A DNA stretch of 64,000 bases from Gemmatimonadota bacterium (GTDB lineage: Bacteria; Gemmatimonadota; Gemmatimonadetes; Longimicrobiales; Gaopeijiaceae): positions 558,001-622,000 of the forward strand of contig JAUIEJ010000001.1 in assembly GCA_030428885.1 (NCBI GenBank). The letters run 5' to 3'. The translations under genes and the position numbers were made by a program. Positions 53,290 through 60,427 of the stretch are shown in pieces; the stretch's first letter is position 1; each line of letters starts with the position of its first letter. Under the pieces are notes generated by a model. That model did no database searches. It was not told where the DNA came from and worked only from the letters and a program-made list of their open reading frames with translations.

Positions 53290-54024
53290 ATGGCGCACTC
53301 CCCCGATTCCCCCGCCGCCGTCCCGCTCCAGCCGGGGGTCCTGCATCTCGTCCGGGCTCGTCTCGATGCGCCCCCCTGGCCCCGGGAGCACCTGGCCGCG
53401 GTCCTCTCCGACGACGAGCGGGCGCGCATCGCTCGCTTCCGTTTTCCCCACCTGCAGCGGCGCCACGAGGCCGCCACCGGGCTCCTGCGCAGGGTCCTGG
53501 CCCGGATCGTGGACCGGGATCCGGCCGACCTGAGGTTCGAGGTGGGGGAGCACGGCAAGCCGCACCTTCCCGGTGGACCGGCCTTCAACCAGTCCCACTC
53601 CGGAGAGTGGTGGATGCTCGGGGTGGCGTCGGAGGGACGGGTCGGGGTCGATGTGGAGGTCCACCGGACCCTGCACGACCTGGACGACCTCGCCCGCAAC
53701 ACCTTCCACCCCGCCGAGGCCGACGACGTCCTGAACGAGCCGTCGCCCGAGGAACGGACCCGGGCCTTCTTCCGGGTCTGGAGCCGGAAGGAGGCGTTCA
53801 TCAAGGCCGTGGGCCGGGGGCTGTCGTATCCGCTGGCGGGGTTCCGGGTGTCGGCCCGGGCCGAGCCCCCGCGGGAGATCCTGGCCATCGACGATCCAGC
53901 CGACGACGTCCGCGGGTGGTGCATGCGTTCGGTGCCATGGGACTCCACTCTGGCCGCCGCCGTCAGTTGGGACCGGCCCGAAGGCCGGGTGGTGTGGACG
54001 CCGGCTCTCGGCCGCGACGCTTGA
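53290..54024 (+). CDS. 4'-phosphopantetheinyl transferase (Sfp type)
   Basis: A 244-residue enzyme that transfers the phosphopantetheine arm of CoA to a carrier-protein serine. KPHLPGGPAFNQSHSGEWWM, GVGVDVEVHR-like GRVGVDVEVHRTLHDLDDLA near residue 119 (Mg-binding Asp/Glu) and FFRVWSRKEAFIKAVGRGLS near residue 163 are the three motifs of the Sfp class. That class serves polyketide or peptide synthases as well as fatty-acid synthesis; no such synthase is in the window. The ATG at 53290 lies 16 bp after cutC. TTATCTTCG a few bases upstream resembles the -10 region TTACCTTCG before the acidic gene, so a very short leader is possible. Confidence 0.93.
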   Translation: MAHSPDSPAAVPLQPGVLHLVRARLDAPPWPREHLAAVLSDDERARIARFRFPHLQRRHEAATGLLRRVLARIVDRDPADLRFEVGEHGKPHLPGGPAFNQSHSGEWWMLGVASEGRVGVDVEVHRTLHDLDDLARNTFHPAEADDVLNEPSPEERTRAFFRVWSRKEAFIKAVGRGLSYPLAGFRVSARAEPPREILAIDDPADDVRGWCMRSVPWDSTLAAAVSWDRPEGRVVWTPALGRDA

Positions 54025-54080: not shown

Positions 54081-55298
54081 GTGCGGACGTCCCCACAGGC
54101 CCCCGATCTCTCTGCTCCCGACCCCGCCGCCTCGGCGTTGGGATCCGAGCCCTCCGCCCGCGACCGGGGTGCCGAGCGCGAGCTGCGACAGGCCCAACGC
54201 ATGGAGGTGGTGGGCCAGATGGTCAGCGGCGTCGCCCACGATCTGGCCAACATCCTCACGGCCATCCAGGGGTTCGCCGAACTGGCCGCCGACGGGGCGT
54301 CGCCCACCACGGCGGCGGTGATCCGGGAGATCCGGTCCACCGCCGACCGGGGCACGGCCCTGACCCGGAAGCTCCTGGCCGTGGGCCGGGCCCGGGAGTC
54401 CCGCGCCGCGGCGCTGGATCTGAACGACTGCGTGGCCGAGGTCGAGGCGCTGCTTCGCCGCGTGGTGGGGCCGGACCTGGAGATCCGAACCGAGCTGGAC
54501 CGGGAGATCCCCCGGGTCAACGCCGTGGCCCACGACCTGGAGATGGTGCTCCTGAACCTGGCCCTCAACGCCCGGGACGCGGTCCGGGGTCCGGGGTGGG
54601 TCCGCATCGCCACCCGGGTGGAGGCGGACCCGGGCGCGCCCTGGCCGTGGGTGGTTCTGGAGGTGGCCGATTCGGGCATCGGCATGGACGAGGAGACCCG
54701 GACCCGGGTCTTCGAGCCCTTCTTCACCACCAAGGAAGAAGGGGTGGGCACGGGACTCGGGCTGGCGGTGGTGGCCGATGTGGTGAACGACCTGGGCGGG
54801 CGCATCGAACTGGCCAGCGCCCCGAGCCAGGGCACGACGTTCACCATCCGTCTGCCGGCGCCCCAGGATCTGATGCCCCGGGAGGAGGAACCGCCCGTGG
54901 AAGACGCGGGCGGGGGGCCCGAGGTCCTGCTCCTCTGCGACGACGACCCGGGGGTCGTGCGCATGTTGGCGTCGGCGCTGCGACGGGTCGGGTACGAGGT
55001 GGTGGAGACCCACGGGCCCCACGAGGCCATCGCGGCCTTCGAGGATCGGGACGGCGCCGTGGACCTCCTGGTCACCGACGTCATGATGCCCGAACTCACC
55101 GGCGAAGACCTCCTGACCCGTCTCCGACAGGTGCGGGCCGATCTCCCCGTGGTGCTCCTCACCGGGTACACCCAGGACGGGCTCCAGGCGCAGGGCGTGG
55201 AGCTCGGGGCCGGGCGCCTGCTCCAGAAGCCCTTCGGTCCCGAGGAGCTGCGCGGCATCGTCCGGGAGGTGCTGGACCAGGCTCGGAGCGGCGCGTAG
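54081..55298 (+). CDS. Hybrid histidine kinase with C-terminal receiver (flagellar locus)
   Basis: A 405-residue cytoplasmic kinase without PAS or membrane segments. HisKA: MEVVGQMVSGVAHDLANILT with His53. HATPase_c: MVLLNLALNARDAV, VADSGIGMDEETRTRVFEPF, FTTKEEGVGTGLGLAVV. A linker leads to a receiver with LLLCDDDPGVVRM, phospho-Asp333 in VTDVMMPELTG and Lys in LLQKPFGP. It is followed after 4 bp by a second kinase-like protein lacking the phospho-acceptor. Its place beside an NtrC-type activator and flagellar genes suggests a FlrB/FleS-like role, phosphorylating the activator at 58539; the partner is inferred from neighbourhood only. Confidence 0.9.
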   Translation: MRTSPQAPDLSAPDPAASALGSEPSARDRGAERELRQAQRMEVVGQMVSGVAHDLANILTAIQGFAELAADGASPTTAAVIREIRSTADRGTALTRKLLAVGRARESRAAALDLNDCVAEVEALLRRVVGPDLEIRTELDREIPRVNAVAHDLEMVLLNLALNARDAVRGPGWVRIATRVEADPGAPWPWVVLEVADSGIGMDEETRTRVFEPFFTTKEEGVGTGLGLAVVADVVNDLGGRIELASAPSQGTTFTIRLPAPQDLMPREEEPPVEDAGGGPEVLLLCDDDPGVVRMLASALRRVGYEVVETHGPHEAIAAFEDRDGAVDLLVTDVMMPELTGEDLLTRLRQVRADLPVVLLTGYTQDGLQAQGVELGAGRLLQKPFGPEELRGIVREVLDQARSGA

Positions 55299-55302
55299 CA
55301 GC

Positions 55303-57072
55303 ATGGCGGTCACCGACGCCTACCGAACCCTCTACCTCCAGGCCCCCATCCCCCTGGTCACCCTCCGGGACGACGGCCGGGTGGTGGACGCCAATCCCGC
55401 CTTCGTGGAGGCGACCCGGAGTCCCAGGGAAACCCTGCTCGGCGCCGACGTCGGCGACTCCCTCGCGGCGCAGGATCGGGGCGCGAGCCGGGTCTATCTG
55501 CGCCAGGCCCTGGAACGGGGGACCGCGGAATGGTCCGTGAGCCTGTCGGGCACACCCAACGTGCGGTGGCACGTGAAGGCGATCTCGTTCAAGGGTCAGG
55601 TGGCCGTGCTGGCCTTCTGGACTCCCCCGGAACAGGACGTGGCCCGGACTCTCGTGCCCGCTCTCGCGGCGGTGGCCCGGAGGATTCCCGAGCAGGCCCT
55701 GATCCTCCTCTCCGCCGATCTGTGGATTCTGGGCGCGTGGGGACTTCCGGAGGTGGGGGCCGCCGACGACTCGGACGTCGTGGGGCGCCACCTGCGACGC
55801 CTCGTGGACGTCGACCCCGGGCGATTGAAGGAGCTGGTCGAGGCCATGGGGGCCGAGGAACCGTGGGCCGGGCGACTCACCCTCTCCGAAGACGACCTGG
55901 GCGGCGGGGAGTGCATCGCCAGTCTCGTCCCGTCGCGGGTCGTGGGCGGAAGTCGCCAGGGCGCCGGGTTCCTGGTGCTCCGCCGAGCCGCCGCCGACGG
56001 ACGCCCTCCCCAGGATCATCGGCGTCTCCACCGCATGGCCCGGGTGGGCGACTTCGCCGTGGAACTCGTGGACACACTCCGGGACCGGGTGCGGGCGCTG
56101 GTCCGGAGCGAGCCGGGCAGCCCGGACGCCCGGCGACTGGGCCTGGAGTTCGAGGCCCTGGACCAGCGGTTGCGCCAGTTCACCGACATCGCCCGCATCG
56201 AGGGGCGGGTGGCCAGGGCCGACGTCGCCGAAGGGGTGCGGAGCCGGTGGGCCGATTTCCTGGCCGACCAGGGCATCGAACTCACGGTGTCCGTGGACGA
56301 CGGCGTGGGCGAGGAGTCTCTCGCCGTCTCCGAAGACCTCATGGTGGCCGTTCTCGACGAACTCGTGGAAAACGCCCGGGTCGCTCTCGACGACGCCCCG
56401 GTACGGACCATCGCCGTGACGGTGGAGGCCGCCGAGGGCAGCGCCCGGGTGGCCGTGGAGGACTCGGGGCCCGGAGTGCCCGGGAGTCGGCGTCAGGCCG
56501 TCTTCCGCCCCTTCGCCTCGGGCCGCGCTGGTCGCCTGGGGCTGGGGTTGGCCACCGCCCGCAGTCAGTTGGAACTGGTGGGCGGATCGCTGATCCTGGA
56601 CGACTCCGACACCGGGGCGCGATTCGTGGTCCGGGTGCCCGTGGAGGGGCCGTCGGCCCCGGCGCCCGGTCCCTCCGACGGTCTCCGTTCGCCCGTCCTG
56701 TCGGGGCGGTCGGTGCTGGTGGTGGACGAGGCCGAAGACACCCGTCGCGCCGTGGCTCGGATCCTGGGCACCGTGGGCATGACCGTGCGGGAGGCCTGGA
56801 GCGCCCGGAGCGCGGTGTCGGAGCTCGTGCAGCGCGGGGTGACCGACGCCGTGGTGTGTACCGTGGGGGGCGACGAGTCGGGGGGCGCGCGTTTCGTTTC
56901 CGACCTCAGGGAAGTGGCCCCCGAGCTGGTGGGCCGGACGGTCCTGCTGGTCGATGTGGCGTCACCGACCCGCATCGGGGTGCTGGAGCAGCGGTGGGGG
57001 TGTGCCGTGTTGGCCCGCCCCCTGGTGGTGGAGCAGTTGGTGTCGCGGCTGGAGCGCGACGCCGGGGCCTGA
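55303..57072 (+). CDS. Degenerate histidine-kinase-like protein (PAS-HATPase-pseudoreceiver)
   Basis: A 589-residue protein. Residues ~8-110 are a PAS domain (APIPLVTLRDDGRVVDANPA), and a second PAS-like region follows to ~230. The dimerisation helix reads LHRMARVGDFAVELVDTLRD, where Asp257 stands in place of the phospho-acceptor His. The ATPase domain looks intact (LDELVENARVALDD, EDSGPGVPGSRRQAVFRPFA, GLGLGLATARS). The C-terminal receiver fold (SVLVVDEAEDTRRAVARILG) has DAVVCTVGGDES, with Thr where the phospho-Asp should be, and Arg for the conserved Lys (LARPLVV). It may bind ATP but cannot relay phosphate, so it is probably a regulator of the adjacent hybrid kinase. Confidence 0.85.
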   Translation: MAVTDAYRTLYLQAPIPLVTLRDDGRVVDANPAFVEATRSPRETLLGADVGDSLAAQDRGASRVYLRQALERGTAEWSVSLSGTPNVRWHVKAISFKGQVAVLAFWTPPEQDVARTLVPALAAVARRIPEQALILLSADLWILGAWGLPEVGAADDSDVVGRHLRRLVDVDPGRLKELVEAMGAEEPWAGRLTLSEDDLGGGECIASLVPSRVVGGSRQGAGFLVLRRAAADGRPPQDHRRLHRMARVGDFAVELVDTLRDRVRALVRSEPGSPDARRLGLEFEALDQRLRQFTDIARIEGRVARADVAEGVRSRWADFLADQGIELTVSVDDGVGEESLAVSEDLMVAVLDELVENARVALDDAPVRTIAVTVEAAEGSARVAVEDSGPGVPGSRRQAVFRPFASGRAGRLGLGLATARSQLELVGGSLILDDSDTGARFVVRVPVEGPSAPAPGPSDGLRSPVLSGRSVLVVDEAEDTRRAVARILGTVGMTVREAWSARSAVSELVQRGVTDAVVCTVGGDESGGARFVSDLREVAPELVGRTVLLVDVASPTRIGVLEQRWGCAVLARPLVVEQLVSRLERDAGA

Positions 57073-57092: not shown

Positions 57093-57548
57093 TCAGGCGC
57101 CGGTGACGCGGGGCCGGAAGGGCGTGCGGACGCCGGGGGCGTCGGAGCGGACGAACTGGACGCCGAGACCCGCCTTGAGATTGATGGCCACCGGACCCTG
57201 CAGGTTGGCCGTCCACATCTCGCCCGCATCCCGGGGCACCGTGGCGATGGCCAGGATGGCCACGTCGGCGGGCTGCTTCACGCCCAGGGCATCGGCTTCC
57301 TGGTTGGGAAGGTCCACGCTGTAGCCTTCGATGACCTGGAAGGGGTCCACCAGCACGAACGCCAGGGGAGCGTGCTCCTCCGACCGGAGCCAGTAGAAGC
57401 CCGGGACGTCGGCCGCCTCGAGGCTGTAACGCGTGGCATCGGGAAAGCCCAGGAGCCCCCGGGGAAACCGCACGGGCTGGCCGATGAAGGGCTCATCGTC
57501 GCCCGATTGACCGGTGGGGGGCGACGGCAGGGTCATGGCGGCGCTCAT
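57093..57548 (-). CDS. fliW: Flagellar assembly factor FliW
   Basis: A 151-residue cytoplasmic protein. VRFPRGLLGFPDATRYSLEA, FYWLRSEEHAPLAFVLVDPF, VAILAIATVPRDAGEMWTAN and LQGPVAINLKAGLGVQFV are typical FliW segments. FliW binds flagellin and CsrA, releasing CsrA repression of flagellin synthesis when flagellin is exported. No csrA is in the window, though it usually follows fliW; the next gene here is the convergent kinase-like gene 20 bp away. The ATG at 57548 overlaps the flgL stop (ATGA), so the pair is one transcript. Confidence 0.95.
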   Translation of the reverse strand: MSAAMTLPSPPTGQSGDDEPFIGQPVRFPRGLLGFPDATRYSLEAADVPGFYWLRSEEHAPLAFVLVDPFQVIEGYSVDLPNQEADALGVKQPADVAILAIATVPRDAGEMWTANLQGPVAINLKAGLGVQFVRSDAPGVRTPFRPRVTGA

Positions 57549-58429
57549 CGCAGGTAGTTCGTGAGGGTGGTGTCCAGGATCCGGCTGGTGGAGAGCAGGG
57601 CGGCCTGATAGGCGGCCTGACGGTTCACCAGGACGGTGATGGCTTCTTCCATCTCCACGTCCATGAGGTCCGACCTCAGGTTGCGGAGGTTGAGATCGAG
57701 GGACTCCACGTTGGCCTCGGCCACGTCGAGTCGGATCTGACGAGCACCCACCTCACCCACGAACCCCTGGAGGTTGGAGTGGGCTGCGTCGATGCGGTCG
57801 GCGCTTCCCTGGATGGTGGCGGTGTCGTTGGCCCGGAGGGCGGTGGAGAGGGCCTCGATGGAGGCCAGGACGTCGGAATCGATGAACAGCGTGCCGGCCC
57901 CATGGGCTCCCTGCATCACGCTCCCTGCGCCCACCTCGTACGAGGGGGACTGGCGGGTGGGGGCCGCGGGATCTTCGGCGCCGGTCACGGCGTCGAGAGG
58001 GGCGCGATCGGGGTAGAGACCGCCGAACACGTAGGCGTCGCCCGACTGGGTATTGGCGATCTGCACGACCTGCCGGTAGAGCTCGTCCACCTCGTCGGCC
58101 GTGACCGATCGGGTCTGGGCATTGGCGTTGGCGCCGGACTGCCCGTAAGCCAGTTCCCGGGCGCGCTCCAGAATGCCCGACACCTGATCCAGCGCCGTTT
58201 CCTCGACGGAGAGTCGCTCCCGGGCCGCCGAGATGTTGCGGCCGTACTGGGTCAGAGCGCGAAGATCGGAGTCCGTCGCCAGCACGCGGCTCGCCGTGGC
58301 GGGATCGTCCGACGGCCGGTTGATGCGCTGCCCGGTGGAGACCTTGTTCTGGGCGTCCGCCACCTCGGAAAGGCCGCGCTGGACCGTCCCCAGGCTGCGC
58401 ATGAGAGTCAGATTGTTGGTGATCCGCAC
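57545..58429 (-). CDS. flgL: Flagellar hook-filament junction protein FlgL
   Basis: A 294-residue flagellin-like protein. The N-terminal D0/D1 region reads MRITNNLTLMRSLGTVQRGL, VSTGQRINRPSDDPATASRV, and the C-terminal region LMDVEMEEAITVLVNRQAAY, QAALLSTSRILDTTLTNYL, with FGGLYPD in the variable centre. It joins the hook to the filament outside the cell. GTG at 58429 follows AGAGGTGG and gives the standard MRITNN start; GTG at 58438 is the alternative. A FliA-like promoter lies at 58488-58514, consistent with a late flagellar gene. Confidence 0.95.
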   Translation of the reverse strand: MRITNNLTLMRSLGTVQRGLSEVADAQNKVSTGQRINRPSDDPATASRVLATDSDLRALTQYGRNISAARERLSVEETALDQVSGILERARELAYGQSGANANAQTRSVTADEVDELYRQVVQIANTQSGDAYVFGGLYPDRAPLDAVTGAEDPAAPTRQSPSYEVGAGSVMQGAHGAGTLFIDSDVLASIEALSTALRANDTATIQGSADRIDAAHSNLQGFVGEVGARQIRLDVAEANVESLDLNLRNLRSDLMDVEMEEAITVLVNRQAAYQAALLSTSRILDTTLTNYLR

Positions 58430-58487
58430 TGCGTCCACCTCTCGTCGAGTTGAGTCCGGAGGGCCCGGCTCGTAGTCTACCCGGGTA

Positions 58488-58538: not shown

Positions 58539-59885
58539 ATGGCGCGGATCCTGTGCGTGGACGACGAGGCCGGTGCCCTCGAGATCCTGAAGGAGACCCT
58601 CCGACAGGCGGGTCATGAGCCCGTGGGGGTCCGGAACGTCGAGGCCGCCATGGCGGTTCTCGGGCGGGGCGGCGTCGATCTCGTCCTCTCCGATTATCGG
58701 ATGCCCGAGACCTCGGGCCTGGAGTTCCTCAACCTGATCCAGGAAGAGGGCCTGGACGTGCCCCTGGTCATGATCACGGGCCACGCCTCCGTGGGGCACG
58801 CGGTGACGGCCATGAAGGCCGGGGCCATCGACTACGTCACCAAACCCGTGCGGGCGGGTCAGCTCGAACTGGTGGTGGAACAGGCTCTGGAGCTGGTGCG
58901 CCTGCGTCGCCAGAACCAGGCCCTGCGCAGCGAGGTGACCGAGCTCCGCGCCGGACACGAACTCGTGGGCGAGAGCGCGGCGTTCGAGAAGCTCCTGGAA
59001 GTGATCCGGGCTGCGGCGCCCACCCGGGCCAGCGTGCTGCTCCAGGGTGAGTCGGGTACGGGAAAGGAACTCCTGGCCCGCACGCTCCACACCCTGAGTG
59101 GTCGGGACGATGGCGCCTTCATCACGGTGAACTGCGCGGCCATGCCCGAGCACCTGGTGGAGAGCATCCTCTTCGGGCACGAGAAGGGGGCGTTCACCGG
59201 GGCCGTGAAACAGGTGAAAGGGGCGTTCGAGCGAGCCAATCGCGGGACTCTGCTCCTGGACGAGATCTCCGAGATGCGACTCGACCTCCAGGCCAAGCTG
59301 CTCCGGGCCCTGCAGGAGAACGAGTTCGAGCGCGTGGGCGGGACGTCCCCCGTGCGCGTGGACGTGCGCGTCATCGCCACCACCAACCGGGATCTCCCCA
59401 CCGAGGTGGAGGAAGGGCGCTTCCGCCAGGATCTCTTCTATCGCCTCAACGTGCTTCCGGTGCGGGTCCCCTCGCTCCGGGAGCGGCCCGACGACATTCC
59501 CCGTCTCGCTCGCCATTTCGCCCGACGGTCGGCCAGCGAGCTGGATCGTCCCGCGCCCACCTTCTCGGCCGATGCCGTGGAGCGCCTCCAGGGGTACGCC
59601 TGGCCGGGCAACGTCCGGGAACTGGCCCACGCCGTGGAGCGGGCCGTAATCCTCTCCCCCGGGCCCGAACTCGGACCCGAGGCCTTCGATCTCCTGGGGG
59701 ACGCACCGGGGATGCCCGGGGCGGCCCTTCCCGACGGGGCCGTGGTCCTCACGAGTCTCCGCATCGACGAAGCCGAACAGGCCCTCATCGAAGCGGCGCT
59801 GGAACGCACCGAGGGCAACCGCACCCAGGCGGCGGGACTCCTGGGCATGAGCGTGCGTACGCTCCGGTCCAAGCTCAACAAGTAG
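58539..59885 (+). CDS. Sigma-54-dependent response regulator (NtrC/FlrC family)
   Basis: A 448-residue activator. Receiver: RILCVDDEAGALEILKETL, phospho-Asp52 in LSDYRMPETSG, Lys in YVTKPVRAG. AAA+ domain: LLQGESGTGKELLARTLH (Walker A), HEKGAFTGAVKQVKGAFERA containing the GAFTGA sigma-54 contact loop, GTLLLDEISEM (Walker B) and RVIATTNRDLPTEVEEGRF. A Fis-type helix-turn-helix ends it (EGNRTQAAGLLGMSVRTLRS). The -24/-12 promoter of the flgB operon lies about 190 bp after its stop. It is the likely flagellar master activator of class FlrC/FleR/FlgR, probably phosphorylated by the kinase at 54081. Confidence 0.93.
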   Translation: MARILCVDDEAGALEILKETLRQAGHEPVGVRNVEAAMAVLGRGGVDLVLSDYRMPETSGLEFLNLIQEEGLDVPLVMITGHASVGHAVTAMKAGAIDYVTKPVRAGQLELVVEQALELVRLRRQNQALRSEVTELRAGHELVGESAAFEKLLEVIRAAAPTRASVLLQGESGTGKELLARTLHTLSGRDDGAFITVNCAAMPEHLVESILFGHEKGAFTGAVKQVKGAFERANRGTLLLDEISEMRLDLQAKLLRALQENEFERVGGTSPVRVDVRVIATTNRDLPTEVEEGRFRQDLFYRLNVLPVRVPSLRERPDDIPRLARHFARRSASELDRPAPTFSADAVERLQGYAWPGNVRELAHAVERAVILSPGPELGPEAFDLLGDAPGMPGAALPDGAVVLTSLRIDEAEQALIEAALERTEGNRTQAAGLLGMSVRTLRSKLNK

Positions 59886-59990: not shown

Positions 59991-60078
59991 TGTCGTTCTC
60001 GTAAAACTTTATGCAGTAGGGCTTTGGGCTGCTGCGGCGACGCTGTTCCGGCCGTGGCGATCCCCACGTGCCGCCCTG

Positions 60079-60094
60079 TGGAACGGGCGTTGCT
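60079..60094 (+). promoter_or_regulatory. Sigma-54 (-24/-12) promoter of the flgB-flgC-fliE-fliF-fliG operon
   Basis: TGGAACGGGCGTTGCT matches the consensus TGGCACG-N4-TTGCW with a single mismatch and the invariant GG and GC at the correct 10-bp spacing. Transcription would begin near 60105, giving a leader of about 24 nt that contains GGGAGG before the ATG at 60128. The gene of a sigma-54 activator lies immediately upstream. Confidence 0.8.
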
Positions 60095-60127
60095 CAAGGA
60101 CCCTCCCGCACCCACGGGAGGAACTGC

Positions 60128-60427
60128 ATGCTCAACGATGTCACGGGAATCGGATCCACCTCCGCCGATCTACGGCGGGAGCTGACCGCGTCCATGGAAC
60201 GGACCCGGGCCGGCTCGGATCGGATCGCCAACGCCTTCAACGGCACCGACGCCTCGTTCACCGACGCCCTGGACGCCGCGCAGAACGGCGCCACGGTGGA
60301 TGGTGAACCGGTGGACGTGGAAGCCGAGATGGTCCGGTTGGCCGACGAGCAGATCCGCTTCGACGCCATGAGCCGGATGCTCTCCAAGGTCTACCAGCAG
60401 GTCCGTGCCAGTGTGAGGGGCGGATGA
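60128..60427 (+). CDS. flgB: FlgB-like proximal rod protein, shortened
   Basis: A 99-residue protein, shorter than the usual ~130-residue FlgB. The C-terminal part fits FlgB well (VDVEAEMVRLADEQIRFDAM, SRMLSKVYQQVRASVRGG), matching the conserved helix that packs in the rod. The N-terminal part (LRRELTASMERTRAGSDRIA, NAFNGTDASF) lacks the standard ASNIANxxTPGY rod motif, although it is preceded by GGGAGG and placed just before flgC as expected. Position and C-terminus support FlgB; the N-terminus is either diverged or trimmed. The stop overlaps the flgC start (ATGA). Confidence 0.7.
   Translation: MLNDVTGIGSTSADLRRELTASMERTRAGSDRIANAFNGTDASFTDALDAAQNGATVDGEPVDVEAEMVRLADEQIRFDAMSRMLSKVYQQVRASVRGG

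Follow-up and report, generated by a model that had tools for sequence, protein, structure and literature searches.

The window analysed here, the whole 64,000-nt stretch of a Gemmatimonadota genome (G000), contains two adjacent kinase genes at a flagellar locus (Table 1). The second encodes a pseudo-hybrid histidine kinase, termed pHK below, and the coordinates, strand and frame assigned to it in a preliminary description are correct. Its ATG at 55303 lies 4 bp beyond the TAG (55296-55298) of a gene for a complete hybrid histidine kinase (HK), as had also been described. No sensor domain was found in HK, and the kinase core best matches CckA models (6.7e-77), below their cut-offs. The gene order phosphopantetheinyl transferase-HK-pHK-fliW-flgL-ntrC-flgB-flgC-fliE-fliF is common to the window and to the loci of G001 and G003, which carry the pHK orthologues of the window type (with G000, the trio). 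HK and pHK are separated by 4 bp, by an overlapping GTGA and by ~40 bp in the three genomes.

Table 1. Features of the kinase pair and the surrounding flagellar locus, in positions of the window.
Feature	Position	Strand	Evidence
4'-phosphopantetheinyl transferase gene, upstream of HK; synteny in both orthologous loci	53290..54024	+	Pfam
Intact hybrid histidine kinase (HK), 405 aa, DHp(His53)-CA-REC	54081..55298	+	Pfam, alignment
Pseudo-hybrid histidine kinase (pHK), 589 aa	55303..57072	+	ORF list, Pfam, alignment, AlphaFold model
Asp257 codon, phospho-His position of the DHp helix; Glu in both orthologues	56071..56073	+	alignment
Asn357 codon, second N-box Asn, kept (VLDELVENARVA); first Asn is Glu	56371..56373	+	alignment
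G1 box DSGPG, kept in 3/3 orthologues	56461..56475	+	alignment
Thr520 codon, receiver phospho-Asp position; Cys and Thr in orthologues	56860..56862	+	alignment
Arg572 codon, conserved receiver Lys position; Arg in 3/3 orthologues	57016..57018	+	alignment
fliW, between kinase pair and ntrC	57093..57548	-	Pfam
Flagellin-type gene, probably flgL, between kinase pair and ntrC	57545..58438	-	Pfam
NtrC-type sigma-54 activator, intact receiver; probable output of HK	58539..59885	+	Pfam
Sigma-54 -24/-12 site TGGAACGGGCGTTGCT, 1 mismatch, upstream of flgB	60079..60094	+	motif search; in two orthologous loci
flgB-like rod gene, likely NtrC target; ORF 60068-60427, start probably ATG ~60128	60128..60427	+	position, orthologues

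A sigma-54 site with one mismatch is found 5′ of flgB in all three trio loci. Over the whole window, matches with up to 2 mismatches number 6 against 16.6 expected by chance, and thus only the conserved position before flgB was counted as evidence. The flgB-like ORF itself has no Pfam match.

The domain order of pHK is PAS-PAS-DHp-CA-REC, with PAS-A at residues 1-110, PAS-B at ~111-230, DHp at 237-296, CA at ~301-450 and a degenerate receiver at 466-589. In Pfam searches PAS_4 and HATPase_c (3.8e-14) are above threshold and Response_reg is below it, and there is no match to HisKA. In the AlphaFold model (mean pLDDT 76, pTM 0.39) the DHp region is a hairpin of two helices (237-268 and 274-296), preceded by two PAS folds and followed by a CA domain and a receiver.

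Alignment with the upstream kinase bears out the three substitutions that had been reported. Asp257 stands in place of the phospho-acceptor His (VGQMVSGVAHDLAN vs VGDFAVELVDTLRD), Thr520 is at the receiver phospho-Asp position (VVCTVGG in pHK, LVTDVMM in HK), and Arg572 is at that of the conserved receiver Lys (LARPL in pHK, LQKPF in HK). The switch Thr of the receiver is also gone, being replaced by V550. Thus the phospho-accepting DHp His that a functional HisKA-class hybrid kinase has is absent from pHK, and is likewise absent from all eight members of its family, and the phospho-Asp and Lys of a functional hybrid kinase receiver are absent from pHK and both orthologues.

The ATP-binding boxes had been described as intact, and this holds for the most part. 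N357, the G1 box (DSGPG) and the G2 box (GLGLG) are kept, but Glu replaces the first Asn of the N box and the ATP lid lacks 2 residues: from PF to GLGL it has 8 residues in 8/8 members of the pHK family, and 35 of the 47 generic kinases that could be measured have 10. Because N357 and both glycine boxes remain while the N-box Asn is lost and the lid shortened, pHK likely binds nucleotide, and its catalytic ability is uncertain.

Profile searches of 121 genomes recovered eight pHK members in 8 genomes, all of one taxonomic family. The profile was built from these eight, so that their own scores of 727-874 bits follow by construction; the next match is at 278 bits or less. With the single window protein as query, full-length members are found at E ≤7.5e-27, followed by one family member matched over part of its length (2.6e-25) and the next protein at 1.1e-18. 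A contig scan with the single protein gave generic CA-domain matches only. In a tree of the DHp-CA-REC part a branch with support 100/100 separates the eight pHKs from the other kinases. It should be noted that the branch of the trio is long (2.69 changes per site) and that the comparison kinases were picked by profile similarity; for these reasons the branching inside the clade was left unused.

None of the eight members has an intact His, and neither of the two refuting conditions set in the preliminary description held as worded. The residues at this position are D, E and E in the window type and L, E, R, G and T in the others, and beyond the trio there is no support for a conserved acidic substitute with a role of its own. 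Among the 81 next-nearest scorable kinases of relatives, 78 have His at the same column, two have a His a few residues off (misregister) and one is ambiguous. With 78/81 on one side and 0/8 on the other, the loss of His is beyond chance. A one-off decay is rejected, given that the eight His-less homologues form one clade.

The receiver shows a different distribution. Asp and Lys are kept in five members (G005, G007, G011, G023 and G041) and lost in the trio, where T/T/C and R/R/R are found. Joint conservation of the three losses, which the preliminary description had raised, is therefore seen in the flagellar-locus trio and not across the family. Since His is missing in 8/8 and the receiver sites in 3/8, the losses read as stepwise, that of His being old and family-wide and that of the receiver later and in one lineage. 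The family is a natural series for testing what a dead histidine kinase does. Receiver residues 495-504 (VREAWSGRSA-like) are nearly invariant in all eight members although three have lost the phospho-site, and this stretch is possibly a contact surface.

Pairwise dN/dS among the three species is 0.44-0.49 for pHK, 0.17-0.28 for HK and 0.06-0.12 for NtrC. Amino-acid identity across the trio is 48-49% for pHK vs 69-78% for HK. The pHK reading frame is open, without stops, in the three species, and the ATP boxes, the PAS motifs and an AWSxRSA receiver motif are invariant in the trio. By these measures pHK is constrained by purifying selection yet fast-evolving. A recent pseudogene is ruled out by the three intact orthologues together with the dN/dS values. 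At the level of sequence, pHK is confirmed as a real, selected pseudokinase that has neither the phospho-His nor the phospho-Asp.

The flagellar NtrC is present in 15 of the 121 genomes, and all 8 pHK genomes are among these (hypergeometric p = 7e-9, ignoring kinship). In G005 and G011 the pHK homologue is flanked by cheR-cheB (with cheY in G011) and by cheA. Its neighbors in G007 are cheA and a run of cheY, cheZ-like, flgM-like, fliS and fliD genes; the names cheZ and flgM come from position and sequence and are not backed by Pfam. In G023 and G041 the homologues are away from che genes, that of G041 being ~13 kb from the flagellar ntrC. All five genomes with an intact pHK receiver have CheW domains and all three with a dead one lack them, a match that compares two lineages and is a correlation, not proof. 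Whole-genome searches found no CheW domain in G000, G001, G003, G004 or G002. The trio genomes have large flagellar loci, yet are without the usual chemotaxis core (CheW).

This pattern would suit a relic: a pseudokinase tied to chemotaxis in the ancestor, whose function is fading in a lineage that has no chemotaxis. The agreement of receiver sites with CheW, the three relatives adjoining che genes, the absence of pHK from G004 and a dN/dS of ~0.45, above the values of HK and NtrC, are all in its favor. We nevertheless consider it unlikely, as the frame has stayed open in three species at 45-49% identity with dN/dS well below 1, the ATP boxes, PAS motifs and AWSxRSA motif are invariant, and the place beside HK is retained.

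The genome G004 separates the regulators from the pseudokinase. One contig (L147, C82:1-15217) has the order HK-ntrC-fliA-flgN/csrA-ChpT-like-receiver-flgM-like, and the regulator genes from HK to the flgM-like gene form a single 6-kb run. HK is 96 bp from the NtrC gene and co-directional with it, and the flgB-type sigma-54 site is now 5′ of fliA. The genome, in which FlhA was not found, has a completeness of 78%, yet the contig is unbroken across this region. It looks as if the flagellar structural genes were deleted and the regulators kept. The arrangement indicates that HK, NtrC, the ChpT-like protein and the receiver belong together and can persist without pHK. The co-occurrence of pHK with the upstream kinase thus stands for the 3/3 trio genomes but is not reciprocal, as G004 has HK and NtrC without pHK, and pHK as an obligate subunit of HK is rejected on the same ground, with the completeness of 78% in mind. 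Five pHK-family genomes are without a detected orthologue of this HK, the kinase search having covered all of them but G041.

Outside the window, the flagellar cluster encodes further phosphorelay proteins. P0008 (G000 C2:655106-656590, L146:13106-14590), whose gene is ~40 kb downstream of pHK, is PAS-PAS-DHp-REC with an invariant His274 and an intact receiver; neither a CA domain nor G1 and G2 boxes were found in it. Its DHp was called from the H-box, the Pfam HisKA match being weak (0.016). Pairwise dN/dS for P0008 is 0.22-0.34. P0009 combines a DHp His with a degenerate CA fold that has no ATP boxes, as in ChpT, and its His32 is invariant in 8 sequences. No Pfam or NCBIfam match was obtained for P0009; compared with the ChpT structures 4fpp and 4fmt its model gives TM 0.46-0.47, and ordinary kinases score equally in Foldseek. 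P0010 is a lone receiver. The ChpT-like gene (L146:4324-4950) and the single-receiver gene (L146:6786-7166) flank motA/motB, and weaker homologues of the ChpT-like protein are on flagellar (FlhA-bearing) contigs of G373, G348, G005 and G041.

Of the 121 genomes, G000, G001 and G003 alone have P0008, and the same three alone have a dead-receiver pHK. The parts of the two proteins are complementary, P0008 having the His and an intact receiver and lacking the G1 and G2 boxes, and a split kinase should be considered, in which the CA domain of pHK would use ATP to phosphorylate the P0008 His in trans. There is precedent in CheA4, which phosphorylates the P1 domain of CheA3 in trans (PMC3964821). 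In CheA3/CheA4 of Rhodobacter sphaeroides the catalytic and phosphoryl-accepting parts are on separate proteins, as they would be in pHK/P0008; the present pair is outside the CheA family, with a HisKA-type DHp and no P5/CheW domain. We regard a split kinase as rather unlikely. The three genomes are one lineage, hence the phyletic match is one event; the lost N-box Asn and shortened lid may impair catalysis; and the intact HK could equally serve P0008, whose gene is far from that of pHK. The exact phyletic match does make the idea directly testable.

Set side by side, HK, pHK, P0009, P0010 and P0008 are similar in layout to the CckA-DivL-ChpT circuit, and kinship is not claimed. A broader, rather doubtful reading is a distributed phosphorelay in a flagellated lineage without CheW-based chemotaxis, in which pHK (as CA-only component), P0008, the CckA-like HK, the ChpT-like phosphotransferase and the lone receiver would jointly control NtrC and the sigma-54 flagellar operon. 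In that case pHK would come from an ancestral chemotaxis cluster, its receiver having died after the loss of chemotaxis.

Since the parts that handle phosphate are lost, the ATP site is kept and every genome with a family member is flagellated, pHK probably steers other signalling proteins and does not signal on its own. Our best explanation, which we hold with a probability of roughly 0.45, is that pHK senses through its PAS domains, binds nucleotide and acts on HK as an allosteric subunit of a switch for flagellum assembly. The two PAS domains and the CA domain would sense a cytoplasmic signal, perhaps the state of flagellum assembly. By protein contact pHK would then set the kinase/phosphatase balance of the sensorless HK; we infer both the contact and the direction of the effect. 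HK would drive the NtrC-type activator, directly or through the ChpT-like phosphotransferase of the same cluster, in a presumptive relay order, and the activator would turn on the sigma-54 flgB operon.

Several observations favor this explanation. HK and pHK are adjacent in 3/3 genomes of the subtype, a kinase without a sensor thus standing beside a protein with two PAS folds. The position of HK 96 bp from NtrC in G004 ties the kinase to NtrC, and the sigma-54 site before flgB is conserved. pHK is intact and under purifying selection, and its family is restricted to flagellar-NtrC genomes. The HK core is CckA-like, with a ChpT-like protein and a lone receiver in the same cluster, and a His-less PAS protein, DivL, modulates CckA (PMC4211667, PMC9430884). 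Assembly state is a plausible signal, as flagellum-associated kinases elsewhere monitor whether the MS ring, rotor and export apparatus are assembled, after which NtrC-type regulators activate rod/hook genes (PMC7064773). Against the explanation are the absence of pHK from G004, the lack of a detected orthologue of this HK in other family genomes, and the faster evolution of pHK relative to HK. The DHp hairpin of pHK, with 37 residues, is ~5 shorter than the 42 of HK, which disfavors a regular mixed four-helix bundle of the two. The allosteric-partner reading of the preliminary description thus survives as a selected pseudokinase beside an intact HK in the three subtype genomes, but not as one whose losses are joint family-wide. 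Other candidate targets also fit pHK, namely the CA-less His-REC protein, NtrC and an ancestral CheA-linked role. A role outside all the readings given here seems very unlikely.

To our knowledge, few pseudo-histidine kinases have been described, and DivL is the main worked example. DivL resembles pHK in its PAS repeats, a DHp without His and a CA fold, and in principle in its pairing with a CckA-like hybrid kinase. The DivL structure 4q20 aligns with the pHK model at Z 20.2 and rmsd 5.4 over 192 residues, a match that is generic, since other kinases align equally. DivL has Tyr at the His position, unlike any pHK member. Compared with the piece of DivL used, pHK has an additional degenerate receiver and better-kept nucleotide boxes, and its locus is flagellar with NtrC as output, whereas the output of DivL is CtrA. 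DivL regulates its partner kinase without phosphotransfer (PMC4211667). The best explanation by analogy is that pHK may work like DivL; identity with DivL is not claimed.

NifL offers another comparison, with the fold order PAS-PAS-H-GHKL and a sigma-54 activator as partner. Foldseek ranks it first against the pHK model (E 7.7e-19), and a profile search of solved structures ranks it second (5.1e-33). NifL controls its activator with a GHKL domain that binds ADP (PMC8219145), and the pHK gene is near that of a sigma-54 activator. By this analogy pHK, in one nucleotide or PAS state, would bind the NtrC-type activator and block it without phosphate transfer. Many ordinary kinases match the model equally, however, and for this reason the Foldseek rank is not read as kinship with NifL; the TM-scores are 0.24-0.28, low from domain arrangement. 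pHK reaches 34.7 bits against a NifL-model cut-off of 242.45, its extra receiver is not NifL-like, the NtrC here has a receiver where NifA has GAF, and fliW and flgL intervene between the genes. Such a blocking role is quite unlikely.

The flagellar kinases FlgS, FlrB and FleS have the phospho-His, in HisKA domains. Their systems likewise consist of a cytoplasmic kinase, an NtrC-type regulator and a sigma-54 rod/hook operon, and no pseudokinase partner is described for them in the literature examined, which includes PMC7064773. Searches of an open-access library turned up no flagellar pseudo-histidine kinase of the pHK sort. Pseudo-histidine kinases as such are already known; what is new is a second family, its flagellar setting and a readable order of losses. 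The findings suggest that flagellum-assembly switches can have pseudokinase input.

In addition, the flgN/csrA gene of G004 (L147:3804-4364) is one ORF with a FlgN domain (1-120) and a CsrA domain (130-168). This FlgN-CsrA fusion occurs in the lineage where fliW adjoins pHK.
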